From NCBI GenBank assembly GCA_021324755.1, contig JAJPIL010000007.1:1-64000 (forward strand): a DNA stretch of 64,000 nucleotides. Reading direction: 5' to 3'. This document shows positions 16,577 through 36,182 of this stretch, in pieces. Source of the stretch: Pseudomonadota bacterium. GTDB taxonomy: Bacteria > Desulfobacterota > Binatia > Binatales > Binataceae. Numbering within the stretch: position 1 is the stretch's first letter; each line of letters starts with the position of its first letter. The translations under genes were made by a program, and so were the position numbers. The notes under the pieces were generated by a model. It was not told the origin of the DNA. It searched no databases and was given only the letters and a program-made list of their open reading frames with translations.

Positions 16577-16583
16577 CGTCGAA

Positions 16584-16658: not shown

Positions 16659-16728
16659 AGTGCTTACCCCCTCCTTTTTAAATTAAGTTCGCGAGACCCC
16701 AGAAGTTGCTCGCCCTAGGCATCTTAAT

Positions 16729-16756
16729 GATATACGTGGCTCGAATTCTGAGTCAA
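16729..16756 (-). promoter_or_regulatory. Sigma-70-like promoter of the pqq operon
   Basis: On the minus strand TTGACT (16756-16751) is followed after 16 bases by TATATC (16734-16729), or after 18 by TATCAT. The -10 lies about 70 bp from the pqqA start. The rest of the 405-bp interval between xoxG and pqqA shows no gene. Confidence 0.5.
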
Positions 16757-17063
16757 GTAAATCCGTAGAAATAACGGAACGACCTTCTTGGCAACCCTAA
16801 GACTTTCACTTCAAACAAAATCGTTGTGACTTTTTCGCCCCTACGGGGCATCGCATTTGAAGCTCCTTGTACAAGCAGCTCAGAACGATAAATGCGCTAG
16901 TCAGTCTGCGCTGTTTCTCCTTTTTATCGCGAGCGATTAACAACTTTTTTGCGAGCGAGTAACTAATTTCTGCCCGCCTAAGCAAAAGTTAAATTCAAAG
17001 AACAGCGTTCGATTGGGTAAAACACATAACGGTCGTGTCTCTATTAATCGCGCTTTTCAAAAG

Positions 17064-17852
17064 CTAGTCATTTGGCCGCCCAGCGCTTAAGATCCCGACA
17101 CTCCGAGCTTTCACATATTCGTAAATCTGCTCGGCATCGTCGGGATCGAAAAAGCCTGCCCATTTTGGCATACCCTTGTCCGGCCGTCCCTCCATCATCG
17201 TGGCTATAAACTCTTCCTTCTTCATTCCGCCGTTAAGCGACTGACGCAAGTCGGGCGCGTACTCGCTTCCGGAAGCGTCGGCCCCGTGGCATCTGAAACA
17301 GTACGAGTTGAACTTCTCCCAGCCCAGGAAAATCGTTTTGGTTACTTTGCTGTCGGTCGTGAATACAGGAAATGACAGGCTTACGACTTTGCCGTCGGGA
17401 AGCTTGTAAGTGTATCGCTTAGCTTGCGCAGCAACAGGCTTCTTTACTTCTACGGGCGCCTTGCTAAGCGAAAGAATCCACTTGACGAGCGTTTCGATTT
17501 GAGCGTCGCTCAGCTGGGGATGCGCGGGCATCGGCAGGTTGCCCCAGTTTCCGGCCCCTCCATCCTTTACCTTTTTCACTAGCTTTTGAAGCGCACCAGG
17601 ACTGTTTGCGTAACGCTTAGCGACCTCGGCAAACGCCGGCCCGACCACTTTCATGTCGACCCGATGGCACGAAAGGCAATCCGTGCTATCCATAATTTGC
17701 TTCACTTTAGGAGGCATTGAACTCTTGGATTGTTCTTGAGCGACGCTCGTGCCAGCCAAAAGCCCAAATCCAATCGCAACAACCATCGCTAGCGAAGCAA
17801 TCGGTCGTGCGAGGCGATAAGAGCGATGTGCGGTGGAAATGCGCGAAATCAA
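17064..17852 (-). CDS. xoxG: XoxG-type diheme cytochrome c, electron acceptor of XoxF
   Basis: Signal-anchor region, then two c-type heme sites: CLSCH at residues 59-63 and CFRCH at 185-189. The first domain looks like cytochrome c551/c5 (VGPAFAEVAKRY, distal Met in NLPMPAH); the second, ending GMPKWAGFFDPDDAEQIYEYV, is the XoxG/cytochrome cL-like domain. The fusion is longer than a standard monoheme XoxG. Start is taken as TTG 17852, directly after the purine block GGGGGAGGGGGAAGAGAG; a TTG at 17888 would place that block inside the gene. It follows xoxJ closely, completing a xoxF-xoxJ-xoxG set. Confidence 0.85.
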   Translation of the reverse strand: MISRISTAHRSYRLARPIASLAMVVAIGFGLLAGTSVAQEQSKSSMPPKVKQIMDSTDCLSCHRVDMKVVGPAFAEVAKRYANSPGALQKLVKKVKDGGAGNWGNLPMPAHPQLSDAQIETLVKWILSLSKAPVEVKKPVAAQAKRYTYKLPDGKVVSLSFPVFTTDSKVTKTIFLGWEKFNSYCFRCHGADASGSEYAPDLRQSLNGGMKKEEFIATMMEGRPDKGMPKWAGFFDPDDAEQIYEYVKARSVGILSAGRPND

Positions 17853-17900
17853 CTCTCTTCCCCCTCCCCCAGGTCGAGGATTTTGCAATTTTAAGCTAAA

Positions 17901-18734
17901 TTAATAGGAACCGATGCCTGGTATGTCCGGTTTATACAACTTGACCCCGAAATTATTTAACACTGCGGTTATCTCTGCCTGTCGCTTTTGAATTACCTCG
18001 TCTAAGCGCTTTTTGGTGGCTTCATCGCCTTTGCGCACGCCCATTGAAATCGGAAACGAGTACTGTTCGGGCGCGCCGTACGTCCTTTCGTTGGGGACTG
18101 CTACGACTTCGAGGTCTGGATAACGCGGCAAAAAGTAGCCTATCGAGGGCTCCCAGGTAATCGCCACGTCAAGGTTACCTTTTTCGATTTCCTCCAGCAT
18201 TATTGCGGGTGACAGGCCGTCCGTATCCCCGATCCTAAACGGTGTCGCAGACAGCACGAGTCCTCTCAGTTTCAAGCCCATCTCAGGGGGCGTGTCGTAC
18301 TCAAACCCGATTTTAAGTTTGCGCAACGCAGGCGAATCCATACTTCGAATGTCGTAGTCTTTTCCCTTTTTGAACACAAAAACGTAGGAAGAAACGTAGT
18401 AAGGCTGGGTAGTCAAAGCTTGAGCATACCCGTACGGAATTTCCATCACTACATCACATTTGTTAGCGTTGAGCGTCTCGTATAAAAAACCGTCAAATCC
18501 TCCTCGTCCTCTGTAGCTTGCCCAAGTGTACTGGAGGTCATCGCCGAGCGTTTTGGCAACTATTTCGGCGATCTTGTTCTCGAGGCCTTGGCCAGACTTG
18601 TTCGAAAAAGGCATGTAGTCCGGGTCAGCGCACACACGTAAAGTACCGGCTAGCACCCTGCTCGCTCCCAGCAGCGTAATAGCAACCACTAAGGCCATTA
18701 CCGCGGGCAAAAAACTCTTTTTTTGTCTACTCAT
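17901..18734 (-). CDS. xoxJ: XoxJ, periplasmic binding-protein-like partner of XoxF
   Basis: A 277-residue protein with a signal peptide (hydrophobic run ending SRVLA), followed by a type-2 solute-binding fold. The start TLRVCADPDYMPFSNKSGQG and the region YRGRGGFDGFLYETLNANKCDVV are characteristic of the MxaJ/XoxJ family rather than amino-acid binding proteins. XoxJ is thought to assist activation or assembly of the lanthanide methanol dehydrogenase in the periplasm. It lies between xoxF and xoxG, separated from xoxF by a hairpin. Confidence 0.9.
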   Translation of the reverse strand: MSRQKKSFLPAVMALVVAITLLGASRVLAGTLRVCADPDYMPFSNKSGQGLENKIAEIVAKTLGDDLQYTWASYRGRGGFDGFLYETLNANKCDVVMEIPYGYAQALTTQPYYVSSYVFVFKKGKDYDIRSMDSPALRKLKIGFEYDTPPEMGLKLRGLVLSATPFRIGDTDGLSPAIMLEEIEKGNLDVAITWEPSIGYFLPRYPDLEVVAVPNERTYGAPEQYSFPISMGVRKGDEATKKRLDEVIQKRQAEITAVLNNFGVKLYKPDIPGIGSY

Positions 18735-18968
18735 TCGGAGACCCCTTAAATAGGATTTAAAATCAACCTTTCATCAATTAAGCTTAGCTCGCTTGTCCCT
18801 CAGCAAGTCAACGTCTCCGCTGGGCCACTCGGTGCCCAATCCGTTTAGGCCTTAAGCAGTTTAGCTTTTAGATTGACGGACTTGGCCAAAAAATGGCGCG
18901 AAGATGCACTCGCCGGCTTCGCAGTGTTTGCTACGGGGCGAAATGTAGAGCAAGTAATAATAGGATAA

Positions 18969-19006
18969 ATGGTCCCGCACTCGCCGCTGGACGAGCGCGG
19001 GACCAT
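18969..19006 (-). terminator. Hairpin between xoxF and xoxJ
   Basis: ATGGTCCCGC pairs perfectly with GCGGGACCAT, with an inner CTCG/CGAG extension and an 8-nt loop. It begins 21 bp after the xoxF stop and is followed leftwards by the U-rich ATTTATCCTATTATTA. It probably terminates most transcripts or protects the xoxF message, giving more XoxF than XoxJ/XoxG. Confidence 0.7.
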
Positions 19007-19026
19007 GTCTAGTCAAGCCTCTTGAG

Positions 19027-20823
19027 TTAGAGCGAGAAGATCATGAGAGTGCCGCCCAGATTGGTGTAGTCTTTTAAGTTAGCGGTCAGCCCGACGGCGC
19101 CCAGACCGGCAGTTGGCTCAGTCAACCCTTCAGCCAATCCGATCGCAGGCCAACCACCGACACCGCACAGGACAGCAACGTACTGTTTGCCGTTGTGCAT
19201 AAAGGTGATCGGGTTCCCGATGATTCCGGAGGGGCAGTGGAACTGGTATAGAATCTTGCCGGTTTTGACGTCAACTGCCCTGAACCAGCCGGTGAGAGTA
19301 CCGTAGAACGCAAGTCCTCCACCAGTAGTCAGAGCTCCACCCCAATCTTGAAACTCGTCTTTGATCTCCCACTTGGTCTCGCCAGAGATCGGGTCGAACG
19401 CGATGAAGCGTCCTCGGTTTCCGCCCTCAGCAGGATACATGCTGACGATCGCTCCTACAAACGGGAAGCCAGCCTTATACTTCACGGCAAAACCCTGGTA
19501 GTCCATGCACAGGTGGTTGAGCGGAGCATAGAAGAGCTTGGTGTCGGGGTCGAAAGATACCGGCTGCTGGTCCTTGTCGCCTTCCGCTGCAGGGCAGATT
19601 CCCTTTACGTTGACGTCCTGCTTGGTCATGTACCTGGGATCGACCTCCGGTCGTCCGGTCTCCAGGTTCACCTCTTTGGCCCAGTTGACCGTCGGATCGT
19701 ACTTGTGCGCGGCGATCAACTTTCCGTTAGACCGGTCGAGGACGTAAGCAAAGCCGTTGCGGTCAAAATGGACCAAAGTCGGAACGGTTTTGCCGTTGAC
19801 TTCCAGATCGGCAAGGATGCACTCGTTGACGCCGTCGTAGTCCCATCCGTCATGGGGCGTCATCTGGTACACCCATTTCGCCATGCCCGTGTCCGGGTCG
19901 CGGGCGAAAATCGTCATTGACCATTTGTTGTCACCGGGCCGTTGCGAAGGGTTCCACGTTCCTGGGTTACCCGAGCCGTAGTAGAGGAGGTTTAGCTTGG
20001 GGTCGTACGAGTACCAACCCCACGTGGTGCCACCTCCGAGTTTCCAAGCATCTCCCTTCCAGGTTTTGAGGCTTGAATCTTTACCTACGGGCTTTTGGGT
20101 AGCACCGTCGATCGTCTTTTCAGGGTCGAAGAGCAGGTCCGAATCTGGCCCTTCGCTGTAGGCGCGCCAAATCCGTTTGCCGGTTGCCAGGTCATAGGCG
20201 GTTACATAACCGCGTACTCCGTACTCGCCGCCGGATACCCCTACGATCACCTTGTCGTGGACAACCAAAGGCGCTGAGGTCATCGTCTGGCCAAGCTTCG
20301 GATCGGCATTTTGTACCGACCAGATTACGCGCCCAGTCTTCGCGTCAAGCGCATAGACGTGCGCGTCCAGCGTTACTACGATAAGTTTGCCGTCGGCGTA
20401 CGCCGGTCCTCGGTTGACGACGTCGCAGCACGCTACCGACGGGGCAAACGAATCTTGATGTGGTGTGAATTTCCACACAAAGCGGCTCATGTCGTTGAGG
20501 TTTATCGCGTAGACATAGTTCGGATAGGCGCTCTCGAAGTACATCATGTCGCCAACCACTAGCGGCTGCCCTTCATGGCCGCGCAGCGCCCCTGTCGATA
20601 TGGTGAACACCACCTTGAGGTTCTTGACGTTTTCCGTGTTGATTTGATTAAGCGGGCTGTAGCGTGTAACCGCGTAATCACGACCTGGCATCACCCACTG
20701 GTTTGGGTCTTTCGACAGAGCCTCCAGGTCCTCTGCCCAGGCTGCAGTTCCCAGAGAAGCCAGAAAAACGACCCCCAATAAAATCCTAAGCCAAAGAAAA
20801 GGACTTCGCCTGCTCTCCCTCAT
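19027..20823 (-). CDS. xoxF: XoxF, lanthanide-dependent PQQ methanol dehydrogenase
   Basis: A 598-residue quinoprotein with signal peptide, eight-blade propeller and the vicinal disulfide C132-C133. Metal ligands are Glu200 (SGGEYG), Asn286 (GSGNPGTWN) and catalytic Asp328. The diagnostic extra Asp330 two residues later (WDYDGVNE) coordinates a lanthanide; calcium MxaF enzymes have Ala there. It oxidises methanol, and often formaldehyde, in the periplasm. Start ATG 20823 has GGGAGG eight bases upstream; the in-frame ATG at 20844 lies before that site. No mxaF/mxaI is seen, so methanol oxidation here would depend on lanthanides. Confidence 0.95.
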   Translation of the reverse strand: MRESRRSPFLWLRILLGVVFLASLGTAAWAEDLEALSKDPNQWVMPGRDYAVTRYSPLNQINTENVKNLKVVFTISTGALRGHEGQPLVVGDMMYFESAYPNYVYAINLNDMSRFVWKFTPHQDSFAPSVACCDVVNRGPAYADGKLIVVTLDAHVYALDAKTGRVIWSVQNADPKLGQTMTSAPLVVHDKVIVGVSGGEYGVRGYVTAYDLATGKRIWRAYSEGPDSDLLFDPEKTIDGATQKPVGKDSSLKTWKGDAWKLGGGTTWGWYSYDPKLNLLYYGSGNPGTWNPSQRPGDNKWSMTIFARDPDTGMAKWVYQMTPHDGWDYDGVNECILADLEVNGKTVPTLVHFDRNGFAYVLDRSNGKLIAAHKYDPTVNWAKEVNLETGRPEVDPRYMTKQDVNVKGICPAAEGDKDQQPVSFDPDTKLFYAPLNHLCMDYQGFAVKYKAGFPFVGAIVSMYPAEGGNRGRFIAFDPISGETKWEIKDEFQDWGGALTTGGGLAFYGTLTGWFRAVDVKTGKILYQFHCPSGIIGNPITFMHNGKQYVAVLCGVGGWPAIGLAEGLTEPTAGLGAVGLTANLKDYTNLGGTLMIFSL

Positions 20824-21070
20824 CACTGGTTCCTCCCTAACCATTCAGAAGTAGCAAAGTCAAATTCGATTTTTCCCCTCCCCGGGGCAGCATAACGTTG
20901 TAGAAGATGCTTTGCTTTTGGCGTTGTGCCCACTCTGCGCCGTTAGCGCCTCCGCCGGGAAGCACAAGCGTGTAGTGCTACGTGAAGTTCAAATTCTTCA
21001 CCCCCTCCCTTCGGCGAGTTAATGCCCGGCTGCTCTGGATACGGCGCGGATTTTACCAAACCTGAATTCC

Positions 21071-23892: not shown

Positions 23893-25227
23893 CTAAGCCC
23901 CCTCGTCGTACTCCTGACTGATATCGACATTTGTATAATCCTTGAGCGCCGAGGTGGCAAGCAGAGAGACCACGGCGCAGACGAGTACGTAGCCGGCAAT
24001 CGCAAAACCGGATTTGTAGCGCGCAAGAAGCGCAGTTGCGATAAGAGGAGCTGGTCCGCCGGCAATAATCGAGGCCAGTTGATAGCCGAGCGACGACCCA
24101 CTGTAACGGAGCCTCCCGGTGAAACACTCGGCGATTAAGGCCGCTTGTGGCCCGTACATCATCGCGTGCGGAATCAATGACAGCAGGATCGCCAAGTAAA
24201 TCAGGGCGACTCGGCCGGAGTTTAGCATCGCGAAGTAAACGAAACTATATGCTCCGACCGTCGCCGCTCCCAGCATGTACATGCGTTTGCGTCCGATTCG
24301 GTCGGACAAGTAGCCGAAAAGCGGGATCATGAAAAATTCGACCACCGAGGCCGAAAGCACCGCCGCCAACAAAAGGTCGCGCGAGACATGAAGCGAGGCT
24401 GTACCGTATGCGAAAACAAATGCTGTGAACGTATAGAAGGGAGCCTGCTCAGCGACGCGAGCAAGGGCCGTGAGCACGATCTCTTTGGGATGGCGCCTGA
24501 TCGCTTCCACCATCGGGACGCGTTCGATCCTGTTTTCCGCAGTAAGCCGCATAAAAGTTGGGGTTTCGAGGATCCCGAGCCGGATGTAAAGCCCGATACC
24601 GACCAAAATGATGCTCAGCAAGAAGGGAATCCTCCATCCCCAAGACACAAACTGGTCTCCAGAAAGCGCGCTGAACGCCAGCACCGCCAAGTTCGCCAGG
24701 AAAAGACCGGCTGGAACGCCAAACTGGGGCCACGAGGCAATAAAGCCGCGATGCGAAGCGGTGCGCGACCACTCCATCGCAAGCAGCACCGACCCGCCCC
24801 ATTCGCCGCCAACCCCAACGCCTTGAATAAAGCGTAATCCGGTCAGAATTATCGCTCCCCATACACCTATCCGAGCGTAGGTCGGGACGAGCGCGACTAA
24901 AAATGTTGCAATGCCCATCAGCATGAGGGTTGCGATTAACGTAGACTTTCTACCGATCCGGTCGCCGTAATGGCCGAAAATTGCGGCGCCAACGGGTCTG
25001 GCAACGAAACCTACTGCGTAAATGAGAAACGCTTCGAGAGTTCCGATTAGAGGATCCGATTTTGGAAAGTAGAGCTTGGCGAACACCAACCCAGTTACGG
25101 TGCTGTACAAGAAGAAATCGTACCATTCGATCGTCGTTCCGATCGTGCTGGCGATCACGGCGCGCCGAAGTTGCTTGCGATGTTCCTCTTCAGACAAGCC
25201 GGTTACGGCAATATCAGGTGTCGCCAT
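23893..25227 (-). CDS. MFS metabolite:H+ symporter (ShiA/ProP-like)
   Basis: About 12 membrane segments, with the MHS-family signature: TIEWYDFFLYSTVTGL in segment 1, the loop GHYGDRIGRKSTL between segments 2 and 3, GVGVGGEWGGSVLLAMEW in segment 4-5, and a second DRIGRKRMYM loop at mid-protein. Relatives carry shikimate, alpha-ketoglutarate, citrate or aromatic acids. Start chosen at ATG 25227, with GAGAGGAGG upstream; the frame stays open to 25278. It is the last gene of the catabolic block, and the block begins with a second MFS carrier, so uptake of the pathway substrate is a fair guess. Confidence 0.8.
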   Translation of the reverse strand: MATPDIAVTGLSEEEHRKQLRRAVIASTIGTTIEWYDFFLYSTVTGLVFAKLYFPKSDPLIGTLEAFLIYAVGFVARPVGAAIFGHYGDRIGRKSTLIATLMLMGIATFLVALVPTYARIGVWGAIILTGLRFIQGVGVGGEWGGSVLLAMEWSRTASHRGFIASWPQFGVPAGLFLANLAVLAFSALSGDQFVSWGWRIPFLLSIILVGIGLYIRLGILETPTFMRLTAENRIERVPMVEAIRRHPKEIVLTALARVAEQAPFYTFTAFVFAYGTASLHVSRDLLLAAVLSASVVEFFMIPLFGYLSDRIGRKRMYMLGAATVGAYSFVYFAMLNSGRVALIYLAILLSLIPHAMMYGPQAALIAECFTGRLRYSGSSLGYQLASIIAGGPAPLIATALLARYKSGFAIAGYVLVCAVVSLLATSALKDYTNVDISQEYDEGA

Positions 25228-25408
25228 CGTCGTTCTAAGCCTCCTCTCGAGCTGATAATGCTCGACCAGGCGCGTCACGGGTCACTTTTCTGCTACCGAG
25301 CGCCTCCAAAAACGTCACGTCTTCCTTCCCATCGCGCGCCCGCATGAAGCCACAAGCCTACTTTCTGTTTGGTGGAAAGCCAGTAACATATTAAAACTTC
25401 CAGCGGCC

Positions 25409-25978
25409 TTAGGCTTCGCCCCAACGTTTAAATAACGAATGCTCGATGTTGAGCTGGTCGAGAATCTTGCCGACAGTATGGTCAATTAGATCCTCGACGG
25501 TGCGTGGTCCGAAGTAAAACGCGGGCAACGGCGGCAAGATGATCGCACCGTTTTCTGCAGCGGCAGCCAGCGCGCGCAAATGACCTAAGTGGAGTGGAGT
25601 CTCGCGCGGTACCAGGACTAGCGTCCGCCTTTCCTTAAGGCAGACGTCGGCCGCCCGCGTCAAGAGATTGCCCGCGTAACCATACGCAACCGCAGAAAGC
25701 GTATTCATCGAGCACGGCACGATCGCCATTCCGTCGGTTCGGAACGAGCCGCTGGCAATTGGGGCTGCCATGTTGCGCACGTCGTGGACCGCTGTCGCCA
25801 ACTTGAGCACTTCCTCGGGCGAGCGACCGGTTTCCAGCGTCAGCGTAGCCTTCGCCGCTTCGGTCATGACCAAATGTAGCTCGATATCCGCTCGGCGGGT
25901 CAAATATTCGACCAGTTTGACGCCGTAAATAATGCCGGTCGCGCCAGTGATTCCAACGATTAACCTTCGCTTAGACAT
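25409..25978 (-). CDS. ubiX: UbiX-type flavin prenyltransferase
   Basis: A 189-residue protein with the full family pattern: GITGATGIIYGVKL (FMN phosphate loop), LHLVMTEAA, MAAPIASGSFRTDGMAIVPCSMNTL, NLLTRAADVCLKERRTLVLVPRETPLHLGHL and IILPPLPAFYFGP. UbiX makes prenylated FMN, the cofactor that UbiD enzymes need. The UbiD at 32633-33961 is in the same block and is the obvious client. The broken paralogue at 1629-2199 is its close relative. Confidence 0.95.
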   Translation of the reverse strand: MSKRRLIVGITGATGIIYGVKLVEYLTRRADIELHLVMTEAAKATLTLETGRSPEEVLKLATAVHDVRNMAAPIASGSFRTDGMAIVPCSMNTLSAVAYGYAGNLLTRAADVCLKERRTLVLVPRETPLHLGHLRALAAAAENGAIILPPLPAFYFGPRTVEDLIDHTVGKILDQLNIEHSLFKRWGEA

Positions 25979-26276
25979 CGCAAAAAGTTGGAACCGTCTG
26001 GAGGCTCGAGCGCTTCAACCCAGCAAAAGCGGGCGTCGCCGTGCCTTCGCAACTGTCACCATGACGACCGTTCGTAGACTATGACCCGTTTGGGGATAGC
26101 TCGCTTACCGCGCACCGGCCCAGCTAGCAAGGCAGCATCCGAAGCGGCTGTGCCGCGCGGCTACGTTTCGACAAAAGCCCCCCACCCAGAAAAAGCAAGG
26201 ATCTTTGAATCTCGGTCCGAGCGCCAACTTTAAAAGCCGTGGTGCGCTTTTTCGCCATGTCGCTAGCCGCGACCGG

Positions 26277-26768
26277 CTACACCTGTTCTCCCTGGCGCAA
26301 GCGCGCCGCGGCCGCCTTGACGGCGTTTATTATGCCGTTGTAGCCGGTACACCGACACAGCACGGCTGAGAGAGCGGCGCGGATTTCGCTTTCAGTGGGA
26401 GTGGGGTTGACCCGAAGTAGGTCGTATGCTGTAAGTAACATCCCAGGCGTACAAAACCCGCATTGCAGGCCATGATGCTCCCAAAACGCCTCCTGGAGCG
26501 GATGAAGCTTGCCATCGCGCGAGGCAAGACCCTCTACGGTGGTAAGCTCGGCTCCGTCGGCCTGCACGGCCAGCATCAAGCACGAACGCGCTGCTTCGCC
26601 ATTGAAAAGAATCGTGCACGCACCACAGATTCCGTGCTCGCACCCCACGTGTGTTCCGGTAAGTCCCAGGTCCTCGCGTAAAAAATCTGCCAAGAGTTTG
26701 CGCGGCTCAGCGAAACCTTCGCGCATCTCGCCGTTGACTCTCAACCGAATCAATCGCTTCTGGCTCAA
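26277..26768 (-). CDS. Molybdenum hydroxylase small subunit, two [2Fe-2S] clusters (CoxS type)
   Basis: Residues 1-75 carry the plant-ferredoxin site C-x4-C-GAC-x11-C (VGCEHGICGACTI); the C-terminal helical domain carries CGFCTPGML and CRCTGY. Length (163 residues) is normal for CoxS/xanthine-dehydrogenase small subunits. Start is taken as TTG 26768, which overlaps the coxM-type stop as TTGA and has AAAGGAG eight bases upstream. It passes electrons from the Mo site to FAD in the M subunit. The gene order here is L-M-S. Confidence 0.93.
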   Translation of the reverse strand: MSQKRLIRLRVNGEMREGFAEPRKLLADFLREDLGLTGTHVGCEHGICGACTILFNGEAARSCLMLAVQADGAELTTVEGLASRDGKLHPLQEAFWEHHGLQCGFCTPGMLLTAYDLLRVNPTPTESEIRAALSAVLCRCTGYNGIINAVKAAAARLRQGEQV

Positions 26769-27643
26769 CTCTGTCGCTCCTTTGCCCGTGCCAAGGCCTT
26801 GCACAATGCGCGCTTGGTCAATACGCGTGTCAGATGGCGCCGATAGTCTGCCGGCGCATGAATATCGCTCGAAGGTTCGACCTCCTCACTGGCGGATTGG
26901 GCGGCTTCAGCTAAAACCTCGTCGCTAAGGCTGCTTTGAAGGAGGATCTTTTCGGCTTTTTGGAGCCGTACGGGAGTCGGGCCCGCACCAGCCGCAGCAA
27001 GCCGCACCTCGGAGCATCGTCCGGCGCGGTCTATTGCCAGTTGGGCAGCTACCGCAACGATCGCAAAATCACCGTGCCGGCGGCTGAACTCCTCGAAAGC
27101 CCAGCCCGCTCCGGAAGGCATTGGCGGTATACGCACCTCGAGCAAAACTTCATCTGGTTCGAGCGCGGTCGTCATTACGTCACGGAAAAATTCGCGCGCC
27201 TTCATTATTCGTTGCCCCGTGGCTCGACCGATCACCAGCTCGGCGTCGAGAGCGGTTACGAGCGCGGGATATTCTGCCGCCGGGTCGGCATGAGCTAGGC
27301 TCCCTCCGATCGTGCCACGGGTGCGAGTCGGCAGATGGCCGACGTACTGAGTTGCCTCGGCCATCAAAGGCAAGCGCTCTCTTACAACTGTTGAAAATTC
27401 AATCGTCCGCTGTCGGGTCAGTGCGCCAAAGCAAAGACGGCCGTCGCGTTCTTCGATATAGGACAGGTGGGGAAGTCGGTTTATATCGATTAGAGCGGCT
27501 GGCCGGCTTAAGCGAAAATTAAGGAGCGCGATTAGGCTTTGCCCGCCGGCCAAGATTTTGGCATCCCCTTGATAGCGCCCAAGGAGTTCGAAAACTTCCT
27601 CCAGTTCGCGCGGATCGTAGTAATCGAAATTCGGTGGTTTCAT
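26765..27643 (-). CDS. Molybdenum hydroxylase FAD-binding medium subunit (CoxM type)
   Basis: About 292 residues from ATG 27643, which overlaps the large-subunit stop as ATGA. FAD-binding motifs are AKILAGGQSL (the AGGQSL loop) and TRGTIGGSLAHADPAAEYP (TIGGSLAHADPA). The C-terminal CO_deh_flav_C-like domain follows from about residue 175. It transfers electrons from the Fe-S subunit to an external acceptor. Translational coupling to both neighbours shows that the three genes act as one enzyme. Confidence 0.93.
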   Translation of the reverse strand: MKPPNFDYYDPRELEEVFELLGRYQGDAKILAGGQSLIALLNFRLSRPAALIDINRLPHLSYIEERDGRLCFGALTRQRTIEFSTVVRERLPLMAEATQYVGHLPTRTRGTIGGSLAHADPAAEYPALVTALDAELVIGRATGQRIMKAREFFRDVMTTALEPDEVLLEVRIPPMPSGAGWAFEEFSRRHGDFAIVAVAAQLAIDRAGRCSEVRLAAAGAGPTPVRLQKAEKILLQSSLSDEVLAEAAQSASEEVEPSSDIHAPADYRRHLTRVLTKRALCKALARAKERQS

Positions 27644-30066
27644 AGCTGTCGTACTCGGCGCGCCTCTTCGATTAGCCGCCATAACTTATCTGGCTTGATG
27701 GGAAGCTCCGTTATCTGAATACCCAACGGGGCCAGGGCGTCACTTACGGCGTTGGCGACCAGAGCTGGGACGGTCATCGAGCTTGACTCACCGAGCCCCT
27801 TGGTTCCGAGAAGCGTGAACGGCGAGGGCGAAACTATGTGAGCGATGTCGATGCGCGGCGCCTCGCTTGCAGTGGGTACCAGATAGTCCATGAAGCTTCC
27901 GACCAGAAACTGCCCCGCTTCGTCGTAAACTAGCTCCTCATAAAGAGCTCCACCCAAACCGTGCAACGCTCCCCCATAGATTTGCCCTTCGGCGATCATC
28001 GGGTTGATAATCGTGCCTGCGTCATGAACCGAGGCGTAACGCAAAATTTTGACCACGCCTGTCTCAGCCTCGACTTCGACAGCCATAACCTCCGCAATAA
28101 AACCATAGGTATTGGAAGAGTTGACGCGATCATAAAGATCGGGGCTCTTCGCCTCCGGAAAGCCGAACACTGCCGACGCTTGAAGCCCTGGTTCTAACTC
28201 GCGAGGAAAGTCCGCCGCATTCCAGTGTGCGCGCCCAGCTAGTTCCTTGAGCGTAAGCGTGGGGCCCGCCGAGGAACGCGGTTGCACTCTGCCCTCGGAA
28301 AACTCGAGCATCTCCTCGGGCGTTTCGGTCAGATAGGAAGCGTATTTGATCAGCTTCGCCTTAAGCTTCCGAGCTGCGAGTGCTGCGGCGCTGGCCCCTA
28401 CTGCTGCAAAGCGGCTCGAGTAGCTCCCTGACGAGACTCCCCAAAGCCGCGTAAACGTATCCATTTCATCCACTACCATCACGTCGTCCAACGCCACTCC
28501 GAGTTCCTCGGCCACGACTTGCGCGATCACCGTGCGATGGCCCTGTCCCTGGGGTGTAGAACCCATCACTACGACGATCTTGCCCAAGGGGTCGACTTTT
28601 ATCGTGGCCGCCTCGGTCGCTCCGGACTTGGGCAGGTAGCTCGGCCGACTTCGATACTGTGGGTCGAGCGCAACCGTGATGTAACCAATGTTGGAAACAG
28701 AAGGATCGACCGCTAACGCAAGCCCGATTCCAAAAAGCCTTCCCTCGCTGCGGGCCTTTGCTTGCTCTTGCCGCAACTCGTCATACTTCGCCAGTTCGAG
28801 CGCTTTCTCCAGTACGGCTGGATAATTGCCTGAATCGTAAAGTCCCCCGGTCGGTGTGCGATACGGAAACTGGTCCGGCGGTATCAAATTTCGCCGCCGC
28901 ACTTCGGCGGGATCCATGCCGAGCTTGGCTGCCAGCATGTCCACCATCCGCTCGATCTCGAAGTACAAATGGCCGCATCCGTAACCACGGTTGGGACCCG
29001 TGGGGCACTTGTTGGTCATGACCACGAACACGTCGGCTTCTAGATTTTGGAACCGATAGGGTCCCACCCAGTTACCGATGGGTCTAAACGAGCAACCAGG
29101 TTCGGGGCTTCGAATGTAGGCGCCCACGTTGTCGAACCATCGCGCCCGCATCCCCAAAATCGTTCCATCCTTCCGAGCGGCCAATTCGCGATAGACTATT
29201 CGGTCAGTCCCGCTCGACGACGCCATCAGATGCTCGCGACGGTCTTCGAGCCAGCGCACCGGCACTCCAAGCTTCATCGCGGCTAGACCGACGAGCGCCA
29301 TGTACGGAAACACGCTCGTCTTGATTCCGTAGCTTCCTCCGATATCGGGCGGCACAATGATACGCAAGCGGTTTTCCGGCAGCTTAAGCGCTCGTGCTAA
29401 CAACGAATGAAGAATGAAAGGGCCCATGAAGTTTGCCCAAATCGTCAGCACACCACCGCTCACGTCGTACGAGGCGACAACGCCGTACGTCTCGATCGGC
29501 GTGGAAGAAAATTTCGGAAATTTGAAACGTGCCTTGATTACTACGTCCGCCTCGGCAAACGCACGATCTGGGTCGCCGTAAATTAAGCTGCGATGGCAAG
29601 CGACGTTCGAGCCTATCTCCTCGTGTAGTAGAGGAGCATCAGTAGCCGTCGCCTGCTCCGGGTCCACCACCGCAGGAAGCGGGTCGTACTCTACCTCGAT
29701 CACATCCAAGGCGTCTTCGGCCACGTATCGGTCTGTTGCCACGACAAGTGCAACCGGTTCGCCAACAAACCGAACCTTGTCGACTGCTGCACAGTAATAC
29801 TTGACCGGAGCCTGGACGCCCACTGAAAAGGGCTGCGTTAGCTGGCCAACGTCTTGGCCGGTGATCACGCCTACCACGCCCGGGATTTCGAGGGCCTTGG
29901 CGACGTCGATGCGAACGATGCGGGCGTGCGCGTAGGGCGAGCGAAGGATCGCCGCGTGGTGCAAATTATTGAATGGCAAATCAGCAATGAAGGTGCCGCG
30001 CCCGGTCAGAAGCGCTGGATCCTCGCTGCGCTTTACAGGCTGTCCGACCAACCGCCGGGATCCCAT
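27640..30066 (-). CDS. Molybdenum hydroxylase large, Moco-binding subunit (CoxL/xanthine-dehydrogenase family)
   Basis: At 808 residues it has the usual length and Moco contacts: GQ near GSTPQGQGH, the catalytic Glu in KGLGESSS near the C-terminus, and AEGQIYGGALHGLGGAL. The active-site loop that reads AYRCSFR in true CO dehydrogenase is GPNRGYGCGHLYFEIER, so it is not a CODH. It belongs to the broad group of hydroxylases for aromatic, heterocyclic or aldehyde substrates; these use water as oxygen source. It starts at ATG 30066, overlapping the enoyl-CoA hydratase stop as TGATG. The substrate is unknown; context suggests a pathway acid. Confidence 0.88.
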   Translation of the reverse strand: MGSRRLVGQPVKRSEDPALLTGRGTFIADLPFNNLHHAAILRSPYAHARIVRIDVAKALEIPGVVGVITGQDVGQLTQPFSVGVQAPVKYYCAAVDKVRFVGEPVALVVATDRYVAEDALDVIEVEYDPLPAVVDPEQATATDAPLLHEEIGSNVACHRSLIYGDPDRAFAEADVVIKARFKFPKFSSTPIETYGVVASYDVSGGVLTIWANFMGPFILHSLLARALKLPENRLRIIVPPDIGGSYGIKTSVFPYMALVGLAAMKLGVPVRWLEDRREHLMASSSGTDRIVYRELAARKDGTILGMRARWFDNVGAYIRSPEPGCSFRPIGNWVGPYRFQNLEADVFVVMTNKCPTGPNRGYGCGHLYFEIERMVDMLAAKLGMDPAEVRRRNLIPPDQFPYRTPTGGLYDSGNYPAVLEKALELAKYDELRQEQAKARSEGRLFGIGLALAVDPSVSNIGYITVALDPQYRSRPSYLPKSGATEAATIKVDPLGKIVVVMGSTPQGQGHRTVIAQVVAEELGVALDDVMVVDEMDTFTRLWGVSSGSYSSRFAAVGASAAALAARKLKAKLIKYASYLTETPEEMLEFSEGRVQPRSSAGPTLTLKELAGRAHWNAADFPRELEPGLQASAVFGFPEAKSPDLYDRVNSSNTYGFIAEVMAVEVEAETGVVKILRYASVHDAGTIINPMIAEGQIYGGALHGLGGALYEELVYDEAGQFLVGSFMDYLVPTASEAPRIDIAHIVSPSPFTLLGTKGLGESSSMTVPALVANAVSDALAPLGIQITELPIKPDKLWRLIEEARRVRQL

Positions 30067-30869
30067 CAGATACCTCGAAAGTTCGGCTTGCGGCGAGCTT
30101 TGAACGACTCAACCCCTTCGCGGAAGTCGTGCGAGCTGCGCAGTCGACCGTAAGCTTCTCCTTCAAGCTCGATACCGACGTGCAGCGGCGCGTCCTGAGC
30201 AGCGTTCAGCACTTTCTTGAGCGTGCGCTGTGCCAGTGGCGAGAAGTATTTAAGTTCCTCGACTAGCGCGTCTACCTCCTTAGCAAGCTCGCTGTCGGGT
30301 ACTACTGCTACTGCCAGTCCCCATTCGTAAGCCTCGCGGCCTGGAATGCGCCGTGACCGCATTGCCATATCTTTGGCGCGCCCTATTCCGATCATCTTGA
30401 CGAGTCGGCTCGTTCCCCCTGACCCGGGGATCATACCTATACGTTGCTCGGGCAAACCGAGCAGCGCCGACTCGGTGACGATCCGAAAGTCGCACGCGAG
30501 CGCTAACTCCAGCGCTACCCCAAAACAATAGCCTTGAATGGCGGCGATCACAGGCTTGCTACATCGTTCGGGAGCGGCCACGTTGTAGGCCAGGTTCGAA
30601 AGGTGTTCGGGAGTTTGTTCCAGGAAGCCCGGGATATCGCCGCCGCTCGAGAAATTGTCGCCCGCTCCGCGCAGGACAATTACTCGCACAGATGGCTCTC
30701 TATCCAAAGCATCAAATGCTGCGGCCATCTGCTCGCGTTGTTTCATTGTGATGACGTTGAGCGGTGGACGGTCCAAGATAACGTCCGCCCGCTCTTTGTC
30801 GCTATTTACCTCTACCCGAAAACCGTCAGCTGTCTTGATAATTTCCGCCAATTCCACAGGTGCGCTCAC
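30066..30869 (-). CDS. Enoyl-CoA hydratase/isomerase (crotonase) family protein
   Basis: A 267-residue crotonase: oxyanion-hole motifs NFSSGGDIPGF and YCFGVALELALACDFRI, with Glu at both catalytic positions (ALELALA and LPEQRIGMIPGSGGTSRL). N-terminal DRPPLNVITMKQREQM is the family's CoA-binding strand-helix. It starts with GTG at 30869. Members hydrate enoyl- or dienoyl-CoA esters, or hydrolyse or isomerise them. Being coupled to the Mo-hydroxylase L subunit and next to a CoA ligase, it probably acts on the CoA ester the ligase makes, perhaps an alicyclic dienoyl-CoA; that is inference. Confidence 0.85.
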   Translation of the reverse strand: MSAPVELAEIIKTADGFRVEVNSDKERADVILDRPPLNVITMKQREQMAAAFDALDREPSVRVIVLRGAGDNFSSGGDIPGFLEQTPEHLSNLAYNVAAPERCSKPVIAAIQGYCFGVALELALACDFRIVTESALLGLPEQRIGMIPGSGGTSRLVKMIGIGRAKDMAMRSRRIPGREAYEWGLAVAVVPDSELAKEVDALVEELKYFSPLAQRTLKKVLNAAQDAPLHVGIELEGEAYGRLRSSHDFREGVESFKARRKPNFRGI

Positions 30870-30912
30870 TTAGTGGGAGTTATCCAATCCACAAAAATCA
30901 AAGTTTTAAGGT

Positions 30913-32436
30913 TTACGAGTCGATCTGATAATTGCCTGCCAGCAACATTCGGCGCAATATCTTGCCAGTGGGCGATTTCGGAACTTCACGGATAAAGACG
31001 TATTCACGCGGGCGTTTAAAGTCAGCAAGCCTCGAAGCCCGGCAATGAGCATCGAGCTCCTGCGCGCTCACATCGGCGCGTCGTTTGATAAAGGCGGTAA
31101 TCTTTTGGCCAAGCCGCTCGTCTGGCAGTCCCACAACCACGACTTCGCCGACTGCAGGATGGAGCGACAGGATGTCCTCGATTTCGACCGGATGGACGTT
31201 CTCGCCTCCGCTTATGATCATGTCGTCGACGCGGCCGGTAACGAACAGATCGCCTTGTTCGTCGAAATGTCCCACATCGCCCGTGAAGTACCATCCATGA
31301 TGTAACGCATTGGCGTCAGCCTCTGGCCTTTTCCAGTACCCTTCAAAGGCCTCGTCTCCCTCCAGGGAGGCGATAATCTGGCCGTCTTCGCCCACTTCGG
31401 CGAGATCGTTGGGGTCGGTGGAGTTAAGCTTAACAACACGCACTCGGCTATTTATTCCAGCCTTGCCAGCGGAACCGGGCTTGGCGGCGGCGTTCTGGTT
31501 GATAGTGAACGTGTAGATTTCTGACGAGCCGTAATGGTTAACGAAAAGCTCAGGATGAAACGCCGCCGATACCCGACGTAGAAGTCCTTCGCTCATTGGC
31601 GCTCCAGCAAAGCCTAACTTGCGCACTGAAGAAATGTCGGTGCTCGCGAAGGATGGGTGCATCAGGAGGTCGTGGTAGAGCGTGGGTATGAGATAAAGGT
31701 TAGTTATGCGCTCGCGTTCGATAAGCTTAAGCGCTTGTCCGGCGTCGAACCGCGGCAAGCACACAAAGCAGCCGTTGACCACCGCCATAGCGAGCAGCGA
31801 GCGCACACCCATCGTGTGGTAAAGCGGCATCACCCCTAACGTTCGCTCGCCGTAGCTGTAACAGTTCTGCGCGACATGAGCTATCGCAGCCGAGCGTTCG
31901 GCGCGATGGCGACGAGGCACCCCTTTCGGCCGACCTGTTGTCCCAGACGTGTAGAACATTAGAGAGATATCGTCCGCTGTAGCTTTGGGCGAAGGACTTG
32001 CCGGTGCCGCGCTCAAAAAGTCTGCGAATCGATAGTTGGCGTCCCCGCTTTCGTCGAGCGCGATGCGTACAAGGTGGCGCGCAAGGGTTGACTCCGCTAC
32101 GGCGTTGGCGGAGACGTCTTGAAAAACGACGGCCCGGGCCTCTGCGTCGTCGATATAAAAATCGAGTTCGGGTGCCTTCACACGCCAATTGACTGGCGTA
32201 CTTATGATGCCAAGCATCTGGCACGCCCAGTGTATCACCGCCATTTCAGCTCGGTTCTGGAGCACCATTAGCAGATGCTCGCCGCGCCGTATATTCAGCT
32301 CTTCCAAAGCAGTCATGACGCGGCAGACCTGGTCTAAAAGCTTCTGATAAGTAAGCCTAAGGTCGCCGTCGACCAGAGCCTCCGCCGCGGGATCTTTTTC
32401 GACTGCTGCAATTAATGTCCGGCCTAGGTCGAACAT
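30913..32436 (-). CDS. AMP-dependent aryl/acyl-CoA ligase (4-chlorobenzoate/benzoate-CoA ligase-like)
   Basis: A 507-residue adenylate-forming enzyme with P-loop YTSGTTGRPKGVPRRH, YGSSEIYTF (A5 motif), HHGWYFTGDVGHFDEQG, the hinge GRVDDMIISGGENVHPVEIE and catalytic Lys in SPTGKILRR. Its start, MFDLGRTLIAAVEKDP at ATG 32436 behind GGGGGAGGG, resembles 4-chlorobenzoate-CoA ligases. It activates a carboxylic acid as its CoA thioester. Together with the crotonase 43 bp downstream it gives the block a CoA-dependent degradation phase. Confidence 0.85.
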   Translation of the reverse strand: MFDLGRTLIAAVEKDPAAEALVDGDLRLTYQKLLDQVCRVMTALEELNIRRGEHLLMVLQNRAEMAVIHWACQMLGIISTPVNWRVKAPELDFYIDDAEARAVVFQDVSANAVAESTLARHLVRIALDESGDANYRFADFLSAAPASPSPKATADDISLMFYTSGTTGRPKGVPRRHRAERSAAIAHVAQNCYSYGERTLGVMPLYHTMGVRSLLAMAVVNGCFVCLPRFDAGQALKLIERERITNLYLIPTLYHDLLMHPSFASTDISSVRKLGFAGAPMSEGLLRRVSAAFHPELFVNHYGSSEIYTFTINQNAAAKPGSAGKAGINSRVRVVKLNSTDPNDLAEVGEDGQIIASLEGDEAFEGYWKRPEADANALHHGWYFTGDVGHFDEQGDLFVTGRVDDMIISGGENVHPVEIEDILSLHPAVGEVVVVGLPDERLGQKITAFIKRRADVSAQELDAHCRASRLADFKRPREYVFIREVPKSPTGKILRRMLLAGNYQIDS

Positions 32437-32632
32437 ATCTTTTTCCCTCCCCCTCAATTTCCTTTAGCACATTTTTGTCCTAAGCCAGAATTTGCAAGTA
32501 TACCAAGCGGTCGGATAAAAATTTCCGTATATGACAATGTAGACAAAACTATCCACAAGCGCATTTTGGACCGACTCTATGGTGGCTCTAAAACGCTTCT
32601 GTGAATGGGGTAGCGCCTCGGTGTACGATCTG

Positions 32633-33961
32633 CTAGCTGCGCCTTGGCGTTTTGACGCGTTCGAAACGCGAAGGATCTGCTCCAACAGGAATCGTTGCAT
32701 CTAGACCCCATTTATCGGTGACACCTCGGCTGTCGGCCGACGGGTCGAGCGGCGAGCCCAATGCCTCCCTTATCAAGATCAAGTCGCGGCCTGGCTGAAA
32801 CCGTGTCGCAAGCGCCCATTCGACGTCTTCCGGCGAGTGGATGTCGATGTCGTCGTTTACGACAACGACCCGTTTAACTTCGTTCGCGGCCGCAAAGGCA
32901 GCCAGAATAACGTTTTTGGCCTCGCCCGGAAGCCTAGGAGTCATCGCTACGACCGCGTGATAACGACACCCAGAGGCGAAAGTGAGCACGACGTCTTTGA
33001 CGTTCGCCGAGACCTGTTGCGTGGCCTTATACAACGCACATTCGCGCGGAATAGCGCCTAGCAACATATGTTCGCGGCTTGCGGGCAAGATCGTTTGAAA
33101 GTAGGGGTTGCGGCGGTGGTAGATCGCCTCGACGCGCACCACGGGCTTGTCGCTTCTGGGTCCGTAGGTGCGTGGAAACTCGCCAAAGGGTCCTTCGGGC
33201 TGCCTGACGTTGGCTAAAATTCTACCCTCGAGTAAAAACTCGGCCATGGCCGGACTGAGCAAGCCGTAGCGTGGCGACTTGACCAACGGAGCGGGAACGC
33301 CTAAAAGACCGCCCGCGACACTGGCTTCGTCGACACCGTAAGCCGTAAGTGCCTGCGACGCCAGCGTATAAGCGGGTGGAAGCCCTATCGCCAACGCTAC
33401 GGGTAGGTCTTTGCCCTGATGCTCTGCCTCGGTGAACATTCGCCAAAGGTGGCGAGGCAAGATGAAAATCCCCAGATGTTTCGAGTCGTTTATCTGCAGA
33501 CGATGGATCGACCAATTGTAGACCCCGTTCGAAAGGCTTCGCGCGACGACGATCGCCGCGGTTATATAGCGCCCACTGTCTTTTTCGTGATGCCATGGAG
33601 CGGGCAAAAGGTCGACACGTACGTCAGCTTCTTCGACTTCCAGTACTGGAGCCTCAACTTGTGACACCTCTCGAGGAGTAATCGGGTTTTCCAACGCCCT
33701 AAGATACCTTGCCAGAACCTGATCTTTGCTCACACCGAGCGCTCGCGCTGCCTGTGCTCGCGAGCCTAAGGTATTACCAACTACGACACCGGCGAGACTT
33801 GGTGAAAAGGCGGGTTTTTCGAACAGGACGGCACTTCGCCCATCGTTATCTTCCAAGATACGGGGAATGTCGTAGCTGAGATCGGCTGACTCCTGCCAGC
33901 GCACCAGCTCCCCGTCACGCTCGAGTTGATCTAGCCAGCTGCGTAAATCGACAAACGCCAT
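32633..33961 (-). CDS. UbiD-family prenyl-FMN-dependent (de)carboxylase
   Basis: About 442 residues. The catalytic Arg and Glu pair of UbiD enzymes is visible in WSIHRLQIND and in EGPFGEFPRTYG (the E-x4-E motif); TLASQALTAYGVDEASVAGGL and RECALYKATQQVSANVKDVVL are also family blocks. UbiDs (de)carboxylate alpha,beta-unsaturated or aromatic acids by dipolar cycloaddition with prenylated FMN, supplied by UbiX of this same block. The start is ATG 33961; no clear Shine-Dalgarno. Substrate could be a hydroxybenzoate, phthaloyl-type or acrylic acid, in either direction. Confidence 0.92.
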   Translation of the reverse strand: MAFVDLRSWLDQLERDGELVRWQESADLSYDIPRILEDNDGRSAVLFEKPAFSPSLAGVVVGNTLGSRAQAARALGVSKDQVLARYLRALENPITPREVSQVEAPVLEVEEADVRVDLLPAPWHHEKDSGRYITAAIVVARSLSNGVYNWSIHRLQINDSKHLGIFILPRHLWRMFTEAEHQGKDLPVALAIGLPPAYTLASQALTAYGVDEASVAGGLLGVPAPLVKSPRYGLLSPAMAEFLLEGRILANVRQPEGPFGEFPRTYGPRSDKPVVRVEAIYHRRNPYFQTILPASREHMLLGAIPRECALYKATQQVSANVKDVVLTFASGCRYHAVVAMTPRLPGEAKNVILAAFAAANEVKRVVVVNDDIDIHSPEDVEWALATRFQPGRDLILIREALGSPLDPSADSRGVTDKWGLDATIPVGADPSRFERVKTPRRS

Positions 33962-34024
33962 AGCTTTGCGCGCGAAATGCAAGCGTGCTTTAAGGCTTTC
34001 TTCTTGGTCCCCATTAAGCGTCAG

Positions 34025-34792
34025 TTAGTCGAATACGCCGCCTCCGTCGACCACCAACGTTTGCCCGGTTACGAAATTGCTTTCCGGCGACGCAAAAAAG
34101 AGCACAGCGCCAAGCAGATCGCTCGCATCCATCGAGCGACTGAGTACGCGCATCCGGGCGGCGCTACTCAGATACTGTGATGTATTGAGCTTGAGCGAAG
34201 CTTGATTTTCCACAAGCCCGGGCGAGACGGCGTTGACCGTGATATTGTAAGGCCCAAGCTCTCGTGCCAGAGCGCGGGTTAGGCCGATAACTGCGGCTTT
34301 GGACGCAACGTAATGGGCAAACCCCGCCGCGCCCGTATTAAATACCACGGAAGCAATGTTGATTATCTTGCCAGCGTTCTGCCGCTTCATGTAAGGGGCG
34401 ACACTTTTGACACAGTTCCACACGCCTCGCACATTTACCGCCATCACCAGGTCCCATTCGGATGTGGTAATCTCGTCGAACGCTTTCTTCTGCCCGAGCG
34501 CCCCGTATACCGCAGCGTTGTTGACCAGAACGTCGATTCTGCCGTGGATACCGTTCGCAATAGCCGCCATGCTCCGGGTTTGCTCCTCGTCGGCCACATC
34601 GGTTTGCACAAATACTGCCCTTCCAGGTCCTCGTTTTGAAAGCTCTTCAGCCAATTGATTCCCAGCCTCGACAGCTAAGTCTGCAAGCACGACAGAGGCT
34701 CCGGCGCGATGGAATGCGCGCGCGTATTCCGCCCCAATGCCGGCTGCACCTCCCGTGATGATTACCGTTTGACCCAGGAATGCTGATTGCAT
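34025..34792 (-). CDS. Short-chain dehydrogenase/reductase
   Basis: A 255-residue classical SDR: TGGAAGIG nucleotide loop, NNAAVYG, active-site Ser in NIASVVFNTG and YVASK (Tyr-x3-Lys), then NAVSPGLVEN and a C-terminal GQTLVVDGGGVFD. Asp after the second strand (VVLADLAVEAG) favours NAD(H). It lies 63 bp upstream of the ubiD gene and could oxidise a hydroxyl made by the crotonase or hydroxylase. Substrate unknown. Confidence 0.88.
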   Translation of the reverse strand: MQSAFLGQTVIITGGAAGIGAEYARAFHRAGASVVLADLAVEAGNQLAEELSKRGPGRAVFVQTDVADEEQTRSMAAIANGIHGRIDVLVNNAAVYGALGQKKAFDEITTSEWDLVMAVNVRGVWNCVKSVAPYMKRQNAGKIINIASVVFNTGAAGFAHYVASKAAVIGLTRALARELGPYNITVNAVSPGLVENQASLKLNTSQYLSSAARMRVLSRSMDASDLLGAVLFFASPESNFVTGQTLVVDGGGVFD

Positions 34793-34847
34793 TGTACTTT
34801 TTCCACGTTTGATCTAATTGCTTGCTAACAATTCATAGACTCTTGCC

Positions 34848-36182
34848 TCACTCAAGCCGCCCGCGCGTCTCTGGCACGACAAGAGCACCTACAATGTAGA
34901 TTACGATTGCACCGACAAGGAAGCTCACAACGTGGCGCGGCAAGGCGGAGATACCAGGGCTAGTGACGGTCGCAAAAGTAGGCATCATCCCGCCCACTGC
35001 AAATCCCACGTTCCACGATACAGCGGTCCCTGTTGCGCGAATCCTGGTAGGAAAACGTTCATTAAGAAAGACAAGAATAGGAGCGTAAGAAGCGTTGCCA
35101 CAGACTGTCAAAGCCAAAACGAGCCAGCGTATGTGTGACGTATCTAGGACAACTTTTGCGTCAAGCCTCGAAAGTTTGAAATAAAGTATCGGAATCAATA
35201 TCAAGTTTATAATTCCAACGGTTAGAAAAAGCTTTTTCCTTCCAGCTAGCTCGCTCAGATGGCCTGCCAATGGTCCGGTCAGGATGATTAACAGACTGGA
35301 GAGAACCAGAAGCGACCCTACTTGAGGTTTCGGTAGATGATTGATTAGCGCCAAAAACGTCGGCAGGTAGCCAGAGGTGAGGTAATACTGTGTACTAGCT
35401 CCTACAACGAGCATTAAGTTGGCACCTACCACACGCAAATACTGTCTCGAAAGCAACGTCCGCAGCGGAGCCCGCTGACCGGCTTGAGTATCGATTTTCA
35501 GGTTTTTCCAAAGGGGCGATTCCTCAAGCGAGCGAAAGATAAAGAGGCCAAAAATAGAACTTAGAATGCCCGAGAAAAACATCACTCGCCAACCAAAATG
35601 TTTGAAGGTCTCCCCAGGAAAAAGCGACGAGATCACAAAGAAGATAGCTGAGGCCAGAAGCCCGCCAAACCCGGCTCCGCCAGCGCCGATTAGACCCGAG
35701 AACAGCCCTCGCCACGCGGGCGGGGCAGTTTCAGTGCCTATCGTGTGAGTCGATGCGACTACGCCACCTACGAAAATTCCCTGGATTAAGCGCAAAAGGA
35801 GAAACAACAAAGGCGCGACGAGCCCGATTTGATCGATTGTTGGCACCGCCCCCATCAGGGCCGTAGCCACGCCGACGCCAATTACCGAAATTACCATCGC
35901 ACGCTTGCGGCCGTACTTGTCGGCGTAAGCGCCGAAAATCGCCGAGCCGGCCGGCCGCATCAAAAGCGTCACACCGAAGGCTGCGTATACGCTGGCCAAT
36001 GAAAGTGTCGGCAAAGACGAGGGAAAGAACAAAGGCGCGATGGTTGGCGCGACGTAAAGAATGATGAACAAATCGAACAGATCGAGCGCCCATCCAAGGA
36101 CCGAAGCTATCAGTGCAGTAGCTACCTGACCCGGGGTTACCTCGACTCGAGCTAAGGAAACTTTAGCTTCTTTTACCTCCAT
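34848..36182 (-). CDS. MFS transporter, sialate/aromatic-acid:H+ symporter type
   Basis: A 444-residue, 12-segment carrier. Segment 1 ALDLFDLFIILYVAPTIAPL, the loop GAYADKYGRKRAM and GIFVGGVVASTHTIGTETAPP resemble the NanT/aromatic-acid symporter branches of the MFS. It is the first gene of the minus-strand catabolic block (SDR follows after 55 bp) and the likely importer of its substrate. The 265 bp upstream (36183-36447) contain no gene and must hold the block's promoter. Confidence 0.82.
   Translation of the reverse strand: MEVKEAKVSLARVEVTPGQVATALIASVLGWALDLFDLFIILYVAPTIAPLFFPSSLPTLSLASVYAAFGVTLLMRPAGSAIFGAYADKYGRKRAMVISVIGVGVATALMGAVPTIDQIGLVAPLLFLLLRLIQGIFVGGVVASTHTIGTETAPPAWRGLFSGLIGAGGAGFGGLLASAIFFVISSLFPGETFKHFGWRVMFFSGILSSIFGLFIFRSLEESPLWKNLKIDTQAGQRAPLRTLLSRQYLRVVGANLMLVVGASTQYYLTSGYLPTFLALINHLPKPQVGSLLVLSSLLIILTGPLAGHLSELAGRKKLFLTVGIINLILIPILYFKLSRLDAKVVLDTSHIRWLVLALTVCGNASYAPILVFLNERFPTRIRATGTAVSWNVGFAVGGMMPTFATVTSPGISALPRHVVSFLVGAIVIYIVGALVVPETRGRLE

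Follow-up and report, generated by a model that had tools for sequence, protein, structure and literature searches.

A probable divergent hmf-type gene cluster for furan-acid catabolism in a member of the Binataceae

The window analysed here is a stretch of 64,000 nucleotides (positions 1 to 64,000 of contig JAJPIL010000007.1, assembly GCA_021324755.1) from a bacterium of the family Binataceae, and its central feature is a block of ten minus-strand genes at 23893–36182, in window numbering. Very probably, this block is an hmf cluster in variant form, encoding an hmf-type pathway for the breakdown of furan acids, compounds that arise from sugars on heating. This assignment, in which substrates and reactions are predicted, rests on gene content, the tree positions of the coenzyme A (CoA) ligase and the crotonase, the closest kin of the UbiD decarboxylase, and conserved linkage, all computed here. 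By sequence, nine genes match the described pathway for 5-hydroxymethylfurfural (HMF), 2,5-furandicarboxylate (FDCA) and 2-furoate; the second transporter is weakly matched and the aldehyde dehydrogenase PsfA was not found. An earlier note, made from the letters alone, had not recognised the set as a characterised pathway, but such a pathway exists: the pair of UbiD and CoxL-like subunit falls within hmf. The chemistry that it guessed (a heterocyclic acid, decarboxylation, a CoA ester and water-based hydroxylation) stands in outline. Judged from sequence, what is new is modest, namely a UbiD that is sister to the HmfF clade and a molybdenum (Mo) hydroxylase outside HmfA with its own active-site loop; the pathway itself has been described. 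The block is best read as a mosaic in which apparently true HmfD and HmfE types are combined with a deep HmfF relative and a sister-branch Mo hydroxylase.

Gene content and predicted chemistry

Open reading frames (ORFs) and domain searches bear out the ten genes, their common strand, the outer limits and the domain content that had been described. In the order of transcription, the genes are:

34848..36182, minus strand: transporter of the major facilitator superfamily (MFS), HmfT-like (MFS_1/Sugar_tr; at least 45% identity to an MFS in 43 of 80 relatives' loci)
34025..34792, minus strand: short-chain dehydrogenase (SDR), PsfG-like, putative 5-hydroxymethyl-2-furoate dehydrogenase (adh_short_C2; 62% identity to locus L010)
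32633..33982, minus strand: UbiD decarboxylase, HmfF-like (TIGR00148, 338 bits against a cut-off of 245)
30913..32457, minus strand: AMP-binding CoA ligase, HmfD-type (2-furoyl-CoA synthetase; within the hmf-linked ligase clade)
30066..30869, minus strand: crotonase-fold protein, HmfE-type (ECH_1; within the hmf-linked clade)
27640..30066, minus strand: Mo-hydroxylase large subunit (Mo-L), HmfA-like, sister branch (MoCoBD_1/MoCoBD_2; trees; loops)
26765..27682, minus strand: Mo-hydroxylase FAD subunit (Mo-M; FAD_binding_5, CO_deh_flav_C)
26277..26804, minus strand: Mo-hydroxylase 2Fe-2S subunit (Mo-S; Fer2, Fer2_2)
25409..25978, minus strand: UbiX flavin prenyltransferase, in the HmfG/PsfC role (NF004685, 261 bits, cut-off 188; TIGR00421, 243 bits, cut-off 109)
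23893..25278, minus strand: second MFS, metabolite/H+ symporter kind (Sugar_tr, MFS_1; TIGR00883, 398 bits, below the cut-off of 443)

The ligase is nested in a clade of hmf-linked ligases (71 rows), and the crotonase is nested in the corresponding hmf-linked clade (61 rows); both are FastTree trees with local supports, some forks lying below 95, from which rows of less than 60% coverage were left out. Identity of the ligase is 58–63% to most proteobacterial HmfD-type proteins and 70% to that of Bosea, and both window proteins are closer to their proteobacterial counterparts than the proteins of Bacillota and L010 are. In the alignments, the crotonase keeps both glutamates of its hydratase-type relatives, which we take to be catalytic. 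The window SDR is the top match in its own genome (44%, 178.5 bits; next, 140.1 bits) of the SDR in PsfG position, named by gene order, of Pseudomonas umsongensis DSM 16611 (locus L051). The second MFS, which mostly has 25–36% identity to counterparts in relatives' loci, is weakly linked to the pathway. As the earlier note had said, the ten proteins have no Pfam match to ring-cleaving oxygenase or benzoyl-CoA reductase families; the block likewise holds no GMC gene (HmfH), and a distinct lactone hydrolase was not seen in it.

According to the available portions of PMC6678421 and PMC12064950, the hmf route runs from FDCA through 2-furoate, 2-furoyl-CoA and 5-hydroxy-2-furoyl-CoA to 2-oxoglutarate. 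For Cupriavidus basilensis HMF14 (hmfABCDE, hmfFG, hmfH), the former gives the roles of HmfD, HmfABC and HmfE, has FDCA decarboxylated by HmfFG, and in that portion assigns no gene to the lactone-opening step, which the latter attributes to 'hyd' in P. umsongensis. Compared by these described roles rather than by sequence, the window block resembles HMF14 in its ligase, crotonase, three-subunit Mo hydroxylase, UbiD, UbiX and deduced chemistry; it differs from HMF14 in having an SDR but no GMC gene, and in a Mo-L and a UbiD that fall outside the canonical clades. Because an SDR is present and a GMC gene is not, the block fits the P. umsongensis description, so far as the available part of PMC12064950 gives it. 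The DSM 16611 locus has counterparts of HmfF, HmfT, PsfG (the SDR) and UbiX at 44, 50, 43 and 52%, respectively, whereas the psfA-like aldehyde dehydrogenase, araC, psfD and hyd of the gene list in that part of PMC12064950 are without counterparts among the ten window genes. The plasmid pHTA426 of Geobacillus kaustophilus (L005) carries a Mo-L of 810 aa that is 57% identical to that of the window, together with a UbiD (44%), an MFS (52%) and a UbiX (52%); it differs in having its own CoxG, XdhC-like, alcohol dehydrogenase (ADH) and aldehyde dehydrogenase genes. Of two ligases in that locus, the fully visible one is 41% identical and the other is truncated by the edge of the stretch, in which no match to the crotonase occurs.

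In the proposed route, the MFS carriers would import furan carboxylic acids, and the PsfG-like SDR would oxidise 5-hydroxymethyl-2-furoate to the aldehyde, which an enzyme encoded elsewhere may convert to FDCA. With prenylated flavin mononucleotide presumably supplied by UbiX, the HmfF-like UbiD would remove one carboxyl group from FDCA to give 2-furoate, the predicted substrate of the HmfD-type ligase, which would form 2-furoyl-CoA. The Mo hydroxylase (L-M-S) would then place a water-derived oxygen on ring carbon C5 of 2-furoyl-CoA. The hydroxylated product could tautomerise to a lactone, whose opening would give 2-oxoglutaroyl-CoA; conversion of the latter to 2-oxoglutarate may be aided by the HmfE-type protein.

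Spacing and recurrence of the gene set

In transcription order, the gaps between longest ORFs, whose true starts may lie later, are 55, 42, 175, 43, -1, -43, -40, 298 and 130 bases; for UbiD, the start codon may be an ATG seven codons inside the longest ORF. The genes from the crotonase to Mo-S overlap end to end (-1, -43, -40) and are tightly packed, UbiX and the second MFS being set more loosely (298, 130). Scans for promoters (3 sites against 7.3 in shuffles) and terminators (17 against 18.7) give no excess. The label 'operon-like' is fair, and a single transcript is unproven since neither scan exceeds the shuffles. It would be consistent with these scans, and with the 298- and 130-base gaps on either side of UbiX, that independent genes merely share one strand by chance, a reading that we consider extremely improbable and reject because the gene set recurs in relatives, as follows.

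Genome contigs were scanned with a UbiD alignment, and the best 80 of at least 570 relatives were kept. These loci were chosen by UbiD likeness, and the counts describe what stands near such UbiDs rather than how frequent the set is; tblastn matches covering less than 40% of the query and duplicate or short loci were left out. Among the 80 loci, Mo subunits occur in 56, UbiX in 54, an HmfD-type ligase in 51 and an HmfE-type crotonase in 47. The Mo subunits, ligase and crotonase stand together in 45 of the 80, in 39 of the 51 loci of at least 21 kb, and in three of six plasmid loci. Loci with the set come from Pseudomonadota, Bacillota, Actinomycetota and unplaced bins, and a Caballeronia region has the order UbiD-UbiX-L-M-S-ligase-crotonase-GMC-MFS. 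The genes are therefore not scattered among relatives, and a grouping beyond chance gains support from these counts and from two genomes of the same family that share the core.

Nearer kin were sampled in 57 genomes (the window's own and others of the same family or class). The ligase-crotonase-L-M-S block is kept at 67–84% in the two same-family genomes, G015 and G027, the ligase of the latter being cut by a contig end. With an E-value of 1e-100 or better, the ligase is found in 4 of the 57 (the window's own genome, G015, G008 and G027), a Mo-L of at least 71% identity in seven, and a UbiD of at least 65% identity in the own genome and G027. In G008, ligase and crotonase share one contig and Mo-L lies on another. 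The neighbourhoods in these genomes, and that of L051, come from a simple caller that takes longest ORFs and puts some genes in the wrong place. Across G015, G027, G008, G001, G013 and G031, the furoate core thus has a patchy distribution within the family, with the UbiD part acting as a module of its own.

Branch positions of UbiD and the Mo hydroxylase

Beyond the promoter and terminator scans, a number of results weigh against the hmf assignment. Identity of the window UbiD to most relatives is 42–46%, and in a tree of 113 rows it forms a branch with L010 and G027 that is sister to, rather than nested in, an 84-row HmfF clade (which includes the HmfF-type proteins of P. umsongensis and of Bacillota; rows with less than 70% query coverage were left out, and the window sequence, as L114, and that of G027 are each present twice). 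Mo-L, too, sits on a sister branch outside the canonical HmfA clade; its best relative among solved structures is the CO dehydrogenase subunit CoxL (515 bits), sisters at 71–74% identity stand in other operons, and no CoxG was found in a search limited to the block. The block also lacks a PsfA aldehyde dehydrogenase, the best match in the own genome being 35% identical and no clear orthologue. Among relatives, the full core is absent from 12 of the 51 loci of at least 21 kb, G015 has the furoate core without a UbiD of the window type, and the UbiD relative of G027 lies on a different contig from its core.

Among solved structures, 6h6v, a chain that we take to come from Pelotomaculum thermopropionicum, is the top match of the window UbiD (402 bits over residues 12–446), followed by its variant 6h6x (395 bits) and, far below, by a phenolic acid decarboxylase (172 bits), the indole enzyme AnInD (169 bits) and PA0254 (105 bits). 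The available text of PMC8988006 identifies 6H6V as HmfF. By these scores, identities as a pyrrole (PA0254) or indole (AnInD) enzyme were rejected, as were, by curated cut-offs, those of VdcC, acting on hydroxyarylic acids (276 bits, cut-off 650), and the phenylphosphate beta type (132 bits, cut-off 469). The E-R-E residues are conserved in the alignment of 89 loci, a count to which the window UbiD and two further UbiDs from the same genome contribute: R161 and E263 in all 89, and E268 in 88.

A histidine, H297, is key for the furan specificity of HmfF in the accessible part of PMC7976604. By 6h6v chain counting, the REH-motif histidine is residue 296 and the FHTI position is residue 287; H297 is for this reason more likely the REH histidine, which the window UbiD shares with 6h6v and keeps as H305, than the FHTI histidine. 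The REH histidine is kept in 83 of 86 loci (L004–L089), with Asn in the other three. The FHTI position, nine residues before H305, is residue 296 of the window UbiD, where the His of 6h6v is replaced by Gln; an initial idea that this Gln296 replaces the furan-specific histidine was dropped on account of the numbering. Over the 86 loci, the FHTI position holds His in 75, Tyr in six and Gln in five.

These data bear on the possibility that the lower pathway leads from furoate to 2-oxoglutarate while UbiD joined separately and acts on another acid, such as a furan carboxylate with substituents or one with a different heteroaromatic ring. Its place outside the HmfF clade would agree with this, as would the Gln at residue 296 that the window UbiD shares with L010 and G027 (most loci having His there) and the setting in G027, where the 65% relative shares contig C40 (L112/L113) with a block of CoA-transferase III, UbiD, luciferase-like protein, a further UbiD, MFS and UbiX, apart from the furoate core. 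However, 6h6v is by far the closest solved relative, the REH histidine is retained, and L010 has the same UbiD type inside a full hmf block; we consider the alternative, a UbiD substrate that is not FDCA, unlikely, and note that it is compatible with an hmf-type furoate pathway. As side observations, the own genome has a similar array on contig C1 at about 70.7–83.2 kb (L110/L111: CoA-transferase III, UbiD, luciferase-like protein, UbiD, MFS, UbiX), and three genomes of the same class (G035, G048 and G055) each give at least 29 matches when searched with the window UbiD, and so are unusually rich in UbiD-type decarboxylases.

For Mo-L, curated models reject identity as CO dehydrogenase (572 bits against a cut-off of 950, and 557 against 991), 4-hydroxybenzoyl-CoA reductase alpha subunit (424 against 995) and xanthine dehydrogenase (below cut-off). 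A tree built from 73 large subunits (rows of less than 70% coverage left out) groups the window Mo-L with six others of the same family, two from furoate blocks and four from other settings, beside the HmfA clade. A second tree, whose 32 rows were selected from the 73 once the first was known, agrees; with these rows, an enforced clade that joins the window sequence, L128 and L134 to HmfA and leaves out the remaining four is rejected (p-AU 3.1e-8). The active-site loop NRGYGCG to which the earlier note had pointed is real (residues 359–365) and is found in the three furoate-linked family members; the other four have NRGYACG, canonical HmfA rows have RGFGG or RGYGG, and the CoxL loop is AYXCSFR. 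A GGSxG motif is common to the window Mo-L and HmfA, with one exception (L026), and is not seen in the outgroup paralogues. Mo-L has 808 aa, against 983–1030 aa for annotated proteobacterial HmfA-type subunits; a separate CoxG gene is present in Geobacillus and L010.

The position outside HmfA, the different loop and the same-family sisters in other operons would also suit a hydroxylase of a different CoA ester, a free acid or an aldehyde, in a block for a non-furan aromatic or heterocyclic acid. Yet the Mo hydroxylase adjoins true HmfD and HmfE types in the window, G015 and G027, and carries the GGSxG motif, as HmfA does, which makes this reading improbable. Within the hmf-type pathway, we tentatively propose, as one possible history, that in this family a separate Mo-hydroxylase lineage, with sisters in other operons, took over furoyl-CoA hydroxylation and joined HmfD, HmfE and a deep-branching HmfF relative, giving a second form of the pathway, perhaps with a shifted range of furan or heteroaromatic substrates. 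We also observe that in G001, G013 and G031 (L131, L132 and L133) Mo-L sisters of 71–73% identity stand beside a second large subunit (40–41%), and that the window has a second Mo-hydroxylase large subunit, adjoining another SDR, at 43560–46786 on the minus strand.

If these readings are right, furan-acid degradation would extend to a family in which few sampled genomes carry it, as the ligase count indicates, and the pathway would tolerate exchange of its Mo hydroxylase, offering a natural comparison for the residues that set furoyl-CoA specificity. The window UbiD would join the candidate FDCA decarboxylases of interest for bio-based plastic monomers. Blocks of UbiD, Mo hydroxylase and CoA ligase should be compared with hmf before they are called new. 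A literature search found no report of hmf genes in uncultured genomes and, beyond PMC12064950, none on furoyl-CoA with UbiD or a molybdenum hydroxylase, which is not proof of absence in print.

Other genes of the window

An RNA family search of the window gave a tRNA as its sole match. On the minus strand at 13326–20844, downstream of the block, lies a XoxF-type pyrroloquinoline quinone (PQQ) alcohol dehydrogenase (TIGR03075, 715 bits, cut-off 480) with a DYD motif, presumably the lanthanide mark of such enzymes, together with a MoxJ-like binding protein, a dihaem cytochrome c, PqqB, a PqqC-like protein and a radical-SAM SPASM protein. The idea that the XoxF-type enzyme, ADH, GSDH and pqq genes form an upper furan pathway was left out because no GSDH, ADH, PQQ-ADH or SBP homologues were seen around the core in G015 and G027; in G008, a GSDH relative (38%) lies near the ligase. 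On the plus strand at 5412–8483, an acetolactate synthase-type thiamine-diphosphate enzyme is followed by a formyl-CoA transferase (TIGR03253, 659 bits, cut-off 504), a pair that possibly serves oxalate metabolism.

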